In this document: positions 54,270 to 58,248 of the stretch, piece after piece | How the letters are laid out: every line of letters begins with the position of its first letter | Numbering within the stretch: position 1 is the first letter of the stretch | Source of the DNA: Bdellovibrionales bacterium | GTDB lineage: Bacteria; Bdellovibrionota; Bdellovibrionia; Bdellovibrionales; UBA1609 | DNA length: 64,000 bases | Assembly: GCA_019637855.1 (NCBI GenBank) | Contig: JAHBUX010000005.1 | Coordinates: 62,001 to 126,000 of the forward strand | Direction of reading: 5' to 3' | The notes under the pieces: generated by a model | The model's database searches: none | Seen by the model: the letters and a program-made list of their open reading frames with translations, nothing else | What the model was told of the DNA's origin: nothing | Made by a program: the position numbers and the translations under genes

Positions 54270-55955
54270 TTAGCGCTCCAATTCGCCAGCGATGATGTTC
54301 TGACTGCCCAAGATGGAAATCACATCAGCCACCAATCCGCCCGTAATTTGGCGCGGCAGGGATTGATAGATCGAAAAACTCGGGGCCCGGCATTTCAAAC
54401 GGTATGGTTTAGCGCTGTTGTCCGACACCAAATAGAAACCGAGTTCGCCGTTGGCGGCCTCAGTGGCGTCGTAAATCTCGCCGGCCGGCGGACGCAAGCC
54501 CTTGATGATCAGCATGAAGTGATTCATCAACCCTTCAATGTTGCCGTAGACCTCTTTCTTGTCTGGCAACACGATGTTCTTGTCGCGGATGGTGTAGTCA
54601 CCTTCAGGAATGTTTTTACATAGCTGAGTGATGATCTTGAGCGACTGGCGCATCTCCGCCAACCGCACCAAATAGCGATCGTAAACGTCGCCGCTGGTAC
54701 CTACCGGAACTTCGAAATCCATTTGGTTGTAGAAGTAATAGGGCTGCGCCTTACGTAAATCCAGGCCCAGACCGGTGGCGCGCAAACACGGACCGGTGTA
54801 GCCCCACTCAATGGCCTCAGCAGCGGACATCTTGCCCACATCGCGCGTGCGCTTTAGCCAGATTTTGTTTTCGGTGAGCAAAATATCGAGCTCGTCCACA
54901 CCGACAGTCATCTCTTTTACGAATTCCATCACGTGCTTGTACCAATCCTCAGGCGGATTGTTGGCCATGCCTCCCACGCGGGTCATGGACACGGTCAAAC
55001 GCGCACCACATAGCTTTTCGAAGAGGGTATAAACTTTTTCGCGATAGGTGAAGAGGTGGAAGAAGGGGGTTAGCGCTCCCAAATCCAAAGCATTCGCCGC
55101 CACACAAATAATGTGATCGATGATGCGCGACAGTTCGCACAAGATCATACGAATGGCTTGCGCTTTGGGCGGAACTTCCACGCCCAGCAGTCTTTCCACC
55201 GCTTTGCAGTAACCCACGTTGTTCATGGGTGCCGAGCAGTAGTTCAAACGATCGGTGTACGGGATCACCTGATTGTAGGGATGGGTCTCAGCCATCTTTT
55301 CGAAACAACGATGCAGATAACCCATCTCCACGCCGGCACGATGAACTTTCTCGCCATCGAGTTGCACCATCACGCGCAAAGTTCCGTGCGTGGCCGGGTG
55401 TGAAGGCCCAATATTGAGCGGCACTAAATCCTTGCTGGGATCGGGTACGTAATTGGGATCGTTGTCGAAATGGACCGGCAAACTTTCCGTGCAGTGCTGC
55501 TGCAGATCCGCCGGATAATCTTTGCGCAGAGGGAAACCTACGAACTGATGGTGCACCAGCAAACGGCGCATGTTCGGATGACCGGCGAATTTAATGCCGT
55601 ACATATCGAAGGTCTCGCGCTCAAGCCAGTCCGCGCCCCGCCACAAATGAATGATGGTGGGAACGTCTTCGCCCTCGGCCACTTGCGCTTTGATACGCGC
55701 GCGCGATGCCTCGCGGGTGGAGAACAGCTCATACACCACATCAAAACGCTTTTCGCGATTAGGCCAATCAACGGCGGTTACGCACATCAGGAAGTCGAAG
55801 CGACCGCTGTCCTTAAAGTGTTTCATCACCGAAACGATGTACTCTTTGGGAATAGTGATCACGTTGGCGCCGTTGGTGTATTCGAAACCGAATTGCACCG
55901 TGGGGAATTTAGCGCTCAAATCCGTGCGCAGGATCTCAATCGTATTGGTGGTCAT
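54270..55955 (-). CDS. nuoCD: NADH-quinone oxidoreductase subunit C/D fusion
   Basis: Fused NuoC and NuoD (561 residues), a form also known in E. coli. The NuoC part (residues 1-175) contains [19 protein letters not shown] and [10 protein letters not shown]. The NuoD part shows [22 protein letters not shown], the quinone-site histidines in [10 protein letters not shown] and [20 protein letters not shown], and ends [10 protein letters not shown]-like ([17 protein letters not shown]). The ATG at 55955 overlaps the nuoB stop (ATGA); upstream ATGs at 55988 and 55976 are less likely. Confidence 0.95.
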
Positions 55956-56497
55956 CTGTACACGCCCGGTTGCCATTGTTCTTTCCACGGCCGCGGAGCT
56001 AGGTCCGCGATCATCTTTTGAATACGCATCACACCGTCAAGCACGGCCTCGGGAGTCGGAGGACAACCCGGTACATACACATCGACGGGAATGACTTTAT
56101 CCACGCCCTGAAGAACGTGATAAGAGCGGTAGAAACCGCCCGAGCTGGCGCAAGCGCCCATAGACAAAACATATTTAGGCTCAAGCATCTGCTGATAAAT
56201 GCGCAAGATGACGGGCGCCATCTTCTCCGTGATCGTGCCGGCCACAATCATCAGATCCGCTTGGCGCGGCGAAAAGCGCACCACTTCAGCTCCGAAACGC
56301 GCTAGATCGTAGCGCGGTCCCATCACGGACATCATTTCGATTCCACAACAGGCGGTTCCATAGGGCATCGGCCACAAAGAGTTCTTACGTCCCCAGGCCA
56401 CAATTTGTTCAAGTTTGGTCGTGAAGGCGAACGTGCGAGTTTCTTCTACGAGAGCTCGGTCCGCCTGCCGCTGTACCAAAGTCTGTGCTTCAGCCAA
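55952..56497 (-). CDS. nuoB: NADH-quinone oxidoreductase subunit B
   Basis: Carries the terminal cluster N2 that reduces quinone. Ligands are in [19 protein letters not shown] and [14 protein letters not shown]. 181 residues. The start is TTG at 56497 with AAGGAG 6 nt upstream. It is the first gene of the cluster; the expected upstream neighbour nuoA is absent, and the region upstream holds a long palindrome and the divergent protease gene. Confidence 0.95.
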
Positions 56498-56570
56498 AGC
56501 AGGCTCCTTATATTTATGTTCAATTGGCTTTCAAACACTCACAAACTAGCAGACTTAAAGCAGCGCGAGA

Positions 56571-56644
56571 AGGTACCAGTTTCCTTTTTGGAATGCGTCG
56601 CGACAGAGGTGGCGCAGCGCATTCCAAAAAGGAAGCTGGTACCT
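56571..56644. repeat. Long palindrome, 27-bp arms with 20-nt centre
   Basis: The arms 56571-56597 and 56618-56644 are inverted copies. They start at GGTACC and run through TTCCTTTTTGGAATGCG, with a single difference that is a G-U pair in RNA. The 20-nt centre is GC-rich (TCGCGACAGAGGTGGCGCAG). The arms are too long for a plain terminator, and no U-run follows the 3' arm. It lies in the nuoB-protease divergent spacer. It could be an interspersed palindromic element or a regulatory RNA hairpin. No second copy was seen in this window. Confidence 0.85.
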
Positions 56645-56766
56645 CTCCCGTCCTTGGTCCAGTTTTTACGCCTTTGGTCTAGTTTCAATGTGAAACCCCC
56701 GGCTTCAGCACTACGCTTTTTTATCGAGTTTCAAAGGAATGTCGAGCCACCAAGGAGGGGGTACAC

Positions 56767-58248
56767 ATGAAAGTCCTAGGAATTATTCTCGCGGCTGTTT
56801 TCTCAGGCAGCCTATGGGCAGCGCCGAATGGCGATATACTCGTGAAACTGGCTTCCAACGCCAAAACTAACGCAGTTACTTTGCAATCGCGTCTACCGAT
56901 GGGCACCGTGGTGGAAGATCTCGGCGTAGCCGGTTGGGTGCGCGTGAAAGTGCCGGCGGGCCAATTCACCGCTTTCCACAACAACTCAATCATGAGTTTG
57001 CCGGGCGTATTGAAAGTAACTCCCAATCACACCATTTCTCTGATGGCCAATTGGAAAGTGACCGACCCCGCCATGCGCACCAAGCTGATGGCCAAAATCA
57101 AGGCCGGCGGCTTGCCTGGCTTGGGCGACGAGCCGGCTCCTGACAATCCGGCCATCCCCGGCTCAGGCTCCGGCGGTTCGGGCTCTGATCCCATGTACAA
57201 TAAGCAATGGGGCATGAACCAAATGATGGTGAAAGAGTCCTGGGTCAACACCAAGGGCAATCCCGAAATGGTGGTAGCGGTGATCGACACCGGCGTGGAC
57301 TACACGCATGAAGATCTCGTCGACAATATGTGGCGCAATCCGGGCGAAACCGGACTCGATGCTCAAGGTCGCGATCGCGCTTCGAACGGCATTGATGACG
57401 ATGGCAACGGCTACATCGATGACGTCGTCGGATGGGACTTCTCCTCCAACGACAACAAGCCCTATGACCTAACTGCCTCTTTGATGGATATGCTGATGGG
57501 CGGCGGTAACCCCGGTCACGGCACTCACTGCGCAGGTAACGTTGCCGCCCGTTCCGACAACGGCAAAGGTATCGCCGGCGTGGCTCCGAACGTACGCATT
57601 ATGGCCCTACGCTTTATCAGCGAAAAAGGCCAAGGCACCACCGCCGATGCCATCAAAGCGATCAAATACGCGGTGGATAACGGCGCTAAGGTGATGTCGA
57701 ACTCCTGGGGCTCTGAAGGCGACGACCCGAGAGATCCCGACACCGGCGCTTTGAAAGACACCATCCAAATGGCGCAAGACCGTGGCGTGTTGTTCATCGC
57801 GGCTGCCGGCAACGGCCACCAAGGCAAAGGCTATGACAATGACAGCGATCCTAAACCCGCTGTTCCCGCCAGCTACAACCACGACATCATCGTGTCGGTC
57901 GCCGCTTTGGATGAGTCCGGTAAACTGGGCTCGTTCTCGAACTGGGGCGCCCGCTCGGTGGATCTCGGCGCTCCTGGCGTAAAAGTCTTTTCAACTGTCA
58001 CTCAGAAAGAAAAATACTCGGATACGGTTATCGACATCCCCGGCATGATCACCGCCACTTGGGATGGAACTTCGATGGCCACTCCGCACGTCGCTGGAGC
58101 TGCAGCTCTCTACTGGAGCCTGCACCCCGAGAAAAATTGGAGAGAAGTTAAAAATGCCGTGCTGAGCAGTGTGAAACGCAACCCCGTCATGAACGGCAAG
58201 AGCACTTCCGGCGGACAGTTGGACGTCGGCGCCTTGATGAAGTTCTAA
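56767..58248 (+). CDS. Secreted subtilisin-like serine protease (S8)
   Basis: Exported protease of 493 residues after a strong AAGGAGG site. It has a signal peptide (1-18, MKVLGIILAAVFSGSLWA), a propeptide-like N-terminal domain (about 20-100, ILVKLASN...VLKVTPNH), a Gly/Ser/Pro linker (residues 118-140), then the S8 domain. The triad is D174 (VVAVIDTGVDYTHEDL), H251 (NPGHGTHCAG) and S436 (WDGTSMATPHVAG); the oxyanion Asn is N349 (AAAGNG). An acidic DDDGNGYIDD loop (210-219) probably binds calcium. Such proteases serve nutrition or prey digestion; the target is unknown. It ends before a terminator and is monocistronic. Confidence 0.95.
   Translation: MKVLGIILAAVFSGSLWAAPNGDILVKLASNAKTNAVTLQSRLPMGTVVEDLGVAGWVRVKVPAGQFTAFHNNSIMSLPGVLKVTPNHTISLMANWKVTDPAMRTKLMAKIKAGGLPGLGDEPAPDNPAIPGSGSGGSGSDPMYNKQWGMNQMMVKESWVNTKGNPEMVVAVIDTGVDYTHEDLVDNMWRNPGETGLDAQGRDRASNGIDDDGNGYIDDVVGWDFSSNDNKPYDLTASLMDMLMGGGNPGHGTHCAGNVAARSDNGKGIAGVAPNVRIMALRFISEKGQGTTADAIKAIKYAVDNGAKVMSNSWGSEGDDPRDPDTGALKDTIQMAQDRGVLFIAAAGNGHQGKGYDNDSDPKPAVPASYNHDIIVSVAALDESGKLGSFSNWGARSVDLGAPGVKVFSTVTQKEKYSDTVIDIPGMITATWDGTSMATPHVAGAAALYWSLHPEKNWREVKNAVLSSVKRNPVMNGKSTSGGQLDVGALMKF

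Follow-up and report, generated by a model that had tools for sequence, protein, structure and literature searches.

The closest published relatives of the repeat examined here are the TIR repeats of TIRtrons (TIRYT), in which a Y1 gene is flanked by TIRs without GTAG and the repeats are dispersed as singles and dimers in species without GTAG REPs (Di Nocera et al. 2013, PMC3733652). The majority of published TIRs carry a GGGGWSAS motif, which is common among them and not universal (PMC3733652). In REPINs, a conserved word of about 16-20 nt forms inverted doublets around a variable, pairing spacer in which compensatory changes occur, single words are remnants, and one cognate RAYT is flanked by the word (Bertels and Rainey 2011, PMC3116915). 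Classical GTAG REPs and REPtrons likewise have the RAYT gene between two inverted repeats, with repeats near gene ends (Nunvar et al. 2010, PMC2817692), and the classes of TnpA-REP proteins include atypical, tag-free subclasses (Quentin et al. 2018, PMC6006769). Other bacteria have been reported to carry REPs near stop codons, GTAG REPs providing a TAG stop, and a REP-tagged dnaE2 (PMC3733652).

We analyzed a palindrome between nuoB and an S8 protease gene in a 64,000-nucleotide stretch of a Bdellovibrionales genome (the window). We conclude that it is very likely a non-autonomous, RAYT-linked miniature mobile element, a REPIN/TIR doublet that inserted into this gap in this lineage. Its family is new, but elements of this kind are known, and it is not a regulatory RNA of its neighbors.

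The two genes are divergent, and the 269-bp gap between them contains the palindrome (Table 1). No other short-spaced inverted repeat in the window is as long as the one formed by its arms, at 56571-56605 and 56610-56644, which is also the sole strong one of the nuoB/protease region. The features that an earlier note had read from the letters were all present: a near-perfect palindrome, whose stem is closed by 27 nested pairs; a single T/C difference between the arms (GTTTCC versus GGAAGC), which leaves a G-U-compatible pair; GGTACC, 1 base inside each end; and no T-run after the stem, and so no terminator U-run, on either strand. Comparison with the rest of the family extended the element by 1 base per side relative to 56571-56644, to 56570 and 56645. 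Measured against dinucleotide shuffles, the palindrome with its surroundings (101 nt) folded as RNA at -63.8 kcal/mol (z -11.4), and the 74-nt palindrome folded as DNA at -35.1 kcal/mol (z -13.0); no shuffle folded as well in either case.

Table 1. Features of the nuoB/protease gap and its flanking genes (window positions)
Feature	Position	Strand	Remarks
Probable RAYT-linked palindromic miniature element (REPIN/TIR doublet), long-core type, 76 nt	56570..56645		Based on folds and copy family
Left tip, AAGGTACCAGTTTCCTTTT	56570..56588	+	2 mismatches to family consensus AAGGTACCAGCTTCCTTTC
Right tip, minus-strand reading GAGGTACCAGCTTCCTTTT	56627..56645	-	2 mismatches
Variable core of hairpin	56589..56626		Outer GGAATGC/GCATTCC common to 7 other long copies; inner loop unique
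nuoB (Oxidored_q6)	55952..56497	-	Host gene outside element; start 72 nt from element
S8 (subtilase) protease gene	56767..58248	+	Host gene outside element; start 121 nt past element

Given that this copy lies 72 and 121 nt from the gene starts, leaves the dyad at 56682-56696 intact and has no U-run, it is probably a nearly neutral bystander. The dyad itself, GTTTCAATGTGAAAC on the plus strand upstream of the protease gene, resembles an operator and is undisturbed by the palindrome. GTTTCAAWTTGAAAC recurs without mismatch at the corresponding position in five other genomes (G001, G002, G003, G014, and G013) and was absent from all other fetched loci, and the dyad may be a conserved regulator site. 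Beside nuoB, NuoC and NuoD appear by eye to be fused in one 572-aa open frame (window 54270-55988, minus strand).

The genome (G000) comprises 3,368,834 bases in 26 contigs. A first search with an 86-nt stretch gave 57 matches, with each orientation of the palindrome counted. A 19-nt consensus tip, AAGGTACCAGCTTCCTTTC, matched 48 times at up to 3 mismatches, compared to once for the reversed control pattern, and the wrongly spaced pattern GGTACCNNNNNCCTTTTTNGNAATG had 0 matches. When 47 of the 48 tips were sorted (C21:77366 being left out), 38 fell into 19 head-to-head doublets, 7 were single, and 2 bracketed a transposase gene; about 26 palindrome or tip sites are scattered over the genome. 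The earlier note had proposed that many dispersed copies in such a search would indicate a REP/MITE-like family, and that is the outcome we obtained.

The tips are conserved across copies, while the cores vary. Eight long copies have TGG[AC]ATGC...GCAT[GT]CCA in common, and the remaining copies have either short cores such as CGATAATCG or unique cores, which are perfectly palindromic. The arms of the 8 long copies compensate for one another: 97.3% of cells were paired, and 6 pairs had changed on both sides. Covariation was 0.176, versus 0.070 when shuffled (0/500) and at most 0.067 in slid versions, the latter a lenient control since the structure was derived from the same 8 sequences. Single tips were not more diverged than doublets in this genome, unlike in published REPINs (PMC3116915), with a mean pairwise identity of 0.920 among 9 single tips and 0.895 among 38 doublet tips, although these are few data. 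Taken one at a time, the tips of this genome folded at a z of about -0.7, no better than shuffles; the only type of tip that folded well was the GGTACG type of a relative (L073; z -2.6).

A short conserved word that occurs both singly and in inverted pairs could also be a DNA-uptake signal, or another protein-binding signal, whose copies pair by chance. Genomes with uptake signals carry hundreds to thousands of them, whereas this genome has only 48 tips, nearly all of them in doublets, and the type of tip tracks the linked transposase across genomes, as described below. Of the explanations we weighed, this one seems to us the least probable.

The transposase gene that is bracketed by the tips is also the best Y1_Tnp gene of the genome. 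It lies at C22:158434-159108, outside the window, on the contig that also holds the palindrome and at a distance of 40 kb from it, and its two inverted tips stand 78 nt before the start used and about 30 nt past the stop. The protein matches Pfam Y1_Tnp above cut-off and the solved E. coli TnpA-REP structure 4er8 (PDB; E 7e-5), and it matches the NCBIfam model NF047646, "REP-associated tyrosine transposase," at E 4e-16 and 59 bits, under the curated cut-off of 80. Residues H75/H77 (HUH) and Y132/Y134/Y136 are kept in its protein family. Three features by which a REPIN/RAYT system is recognized occur here: inverted doublets with a pairing spacer, a cognate RAYT gene bracketed by inverted copies of the word, and a transposase of the HUH/Y1 family.

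Small size, terminal inverted repeats and dispersed copies would equally be expected of a MITE, that is, of a classical TIR element with target duplication that belongs to an insertion sequence with a DDE transposase. However, the only transposase found with the tips belongs to the Y1/HUH type, a pairing that recurs across the order, and inspection of the flanks revealed no evident target duplication, the flanks being inverted-complementary and not direct repeats. We therefore regard a DDE-driven MITE as exceedingly unlikely.

The same genome encodes a second RAYT, at C22:171074-171691. On its flanks stands another inverted repeat, GGTAGGGGCTAACATTTCCGG, which agrees with each RAYT having a repeat family of its own. 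Four further Y1_Tnp genes (L039, L040, L041, and L042, on contigs C2, C11, C8, and C21) have CATGGATGG/CATGGACGG-type sequences nearby, and 3 of the 4 adjoin short tandem repeats: (GGAGA)n, (CT)n, and (GGCTCATC)n.

We compared three sites with their counterparts in relatives. The divergent nuoB/protease order occurs without the palindrome in three genomes of the same genus (G001, G002, and G003) and in G014. G001 aligns loosely on either side of the palindrome, with GCGAGAAG in common at the left edge; the relatives' proteases are 69-71% identical, which is too diverged for a base-exact empty site. The copy at C12:72717-72775 lies in frame within a gene for a DnaE2-type error-prone DNA polymerase (NF004225), which reads TLE-KVPASFPKGGPPFGKEAGTF-SVR where G001 has TLEDN-EVR and G002 has TLESG-EVR, a net gain of 18 residues that is missing from G001, G002, and others. 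The element is stop-free in most frames. The copy at C24:127616 stands exactly between the stops of mutS2 and a converging neighbor; in G001, mutS2 and the same neighbor converge with stops 3 nt apart. Truncation of mutS2 by the element was ruled out, since its C-terminus (..TW[VA]ELRD and stop) is the same in G001, and this copy therefore lies between the stop codons. At the copy C6:28797, the last residues of the adjacent peptidase differ, and its neighbor is not conserved. Insertion is the simplest account of the three empty sites together, the comparisons being with other species.

These comparisons also bear on whether the hairpin is a conserved cis-regulatory RNA, either a leader or a small RNA, that serves nuoB or the protease gene and whose pairing is under selection. 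The earlier note had left the choice between selection for RNA pairing and a recent origin as a palindromic mobile repeat. A very stable intergenic hairpin 72 nt upstream of nuoB would suit the former. However, the hairpin is missing at this locus in the same-genus relatives and in G014, it has no U-run, the same element is found at unrelated genes, and a search of Rfam returned no family at cut-off, with weak matches to eukaryotic microRNA hairpins only. Moreover, the copies whose arms compensate for one another lie at unrelated sites, which is what one would predict of a hairpin that matters to the mobile element itself. A local regulatory RNA is thus very unlikely, and it is the mobile repeat that the dispersed copies, the transposase gene bracketed by the same tips, and the empty sites bear out.

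Many copies adjoin the ends of genes. Counting open frames of at least 100 codons that end within 60 nt of a tip (frames were assigned automatically, and a small number may be spurious), we found that gene ends fell within 3 nt of the tip in 21 of 27 cases in this genome, 7 of 14 in G061, and 14 of 17 in G053. The stop codon is often completed by the A-run of the tip itself (T + AA). Given the reports from other bacteria (PMC3733652), this placement is a shared habit and not a novelty, and the in-frame dnaE2 copy adds a further independent case of a REP target known elsewhere. At C23:11125, a 148-aa open frame gains a new C-terminal tail (KGTSFLSGMRRDIE) from a single tip that is read in frame.

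Such placement raises the potential that the copies terminate transcription in both directions where genes converge, being alike in sequence through descent or convergence, and several of them do have the form AAAAGG...CCTTTT, which gives a hairpin and a short U-run whichever strand is read. The copy in the window is unlikely to be such a terminator, given that it sits between two gene starts and lacks a U-run on either strand. In addition, one copy lies within dnaE2, two tips bracket a transposase gene, and terminators would not need a common 19-nt sequence. As an account of the family, termination has a very low probability in our judgment, although some copies of what we take to be a mobile element may serve secondarily as terminators.

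Outside the tips, the flanks of many doublets in this genome are themselves inverted-complementary. Over the 19 doublets there were 64 contiguous matching bases, compared to 19.3 in re-dealt flanks (0/5000). The symmetry extends up to 10 nt, as at C14:12284 (GGAGTGAGG / CCTCACTCC), C20:41526, C2:80818, and C12:52897; none was present at the window copy, and none was seen by eye in the doublets of G061 and G053. Converging stop codons explain part of it, and the rest could reflect either insertion at dyads that were already there or template switching that copied one arm outward. We suggest, as a speculation that is more doubtful than likely, that an order-wide RAYT clade uses GTAG-free AAGGT[A/G][C/G][C/G] tips and prefers dyads, notably junctions of converging stops, where the inserted palindrome would keep both stops and become a two-way terminator.

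Homologs of the RAYT (E 1e-30 or better) were found in 85 of 141 genomes of the order. By hand count, 23 of the 30 inspected RAYT genes were flanked by related inverted tips of the AAGGT[A/G/T][C/G][C/G] kind. Tip type co-segregates with RAYT phylogeny, changing 5 times on the tree versus a mean of 12.0 and a minimum of 8 in 300 label shuffles, on a quick tree with many weakly supported forks. A degenerate tip pattern occurred in 17-79 copies per genome across 14 genomes, compared to 0-3 for controls. Since G002, of the same genus, had 31 matches to the pattern, tips of this kind are not restricted to the species, while the insertion beside nuoB is. The literature we searched yielded no description of these repeats in this order or in Bdellovibrio.

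How, then, does the family relate to the described systems? As in TIRtrons, a Y1 tyrosine transposase is flanked by non-GTAG TIRs (in the 23 of 30 homologs noted above) and the repeats are dispersed as singles and dimers. Unlike in TIRtrons, the tips begin AAGGT[A/G/T][C/G][C/G] in place of the published GGGGWSAS, and they are spread over a whole order with many tip types; the protein here has 225-261 aa and showed no additional domain. The inverted doublet of a conserved word, the variable pairing spacer with its compensatory changes, the singles as remnants, and the one cognate RAYT flanked by the word are shared with REPINs (PMC3116915), and in anatomy and presumed working we would call this element a REPIN. 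It departs from REPINs in its low number of about 26 sites, the lack of a GTAG/GTGG tag, a stem that is almost perfect over its full length, and singles that are not more diverged. Classical GTAG REPs share the RAYT gene between two inverted repeats and the proximity to gene ends (PMC2817692), whereas here GT[AG]G is absent from the tip consensus and its edges, at the foot of the hairpin, and a lone tip is a weak hairpin where each classical unit forms a stable imperfect palindrome by itself. With regard to membership, the family thus falls outside the classical REPs and fits the looser TIRtron/TIRYT definition (PMC3733652) or the atypical tag-free TnpA-REP subclasses (PMC6006769). The dnaE2 copy, a palindrome that entered a protein gene without shifting its frame and is tolerated as extra peptide, also recalls the Rickettsia palindromic elements by their description, although only one clear internal in-frame copy occurs here.

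The likely mover is the tip-bracketed RAYT, which very probably spread the hairpin. We propose that the element, two inverted tips of about 19 nt closing a variable palindromic core, would extrude as a hairpin in single-stranded DNA of the lagging-strand template; that the RAYT would recognize the tips and cut and rejoin beside them; and that the element would be pasted at another place. It is the empty sites in other species that suggest the doublet moves. Since there is no GTAG tag and single tips fold like shuffles, classical REP recognition should not be assumed.

Our analysis explains the palindrome beside nuoB and ties it to a transposase, and it reveals a set of tip/transposase pairs, diverse in type, throughout the order. 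This set would permit a direct test of how RAYTs recognize their ends without a GTAG tag and whether they choose the ends of genes.
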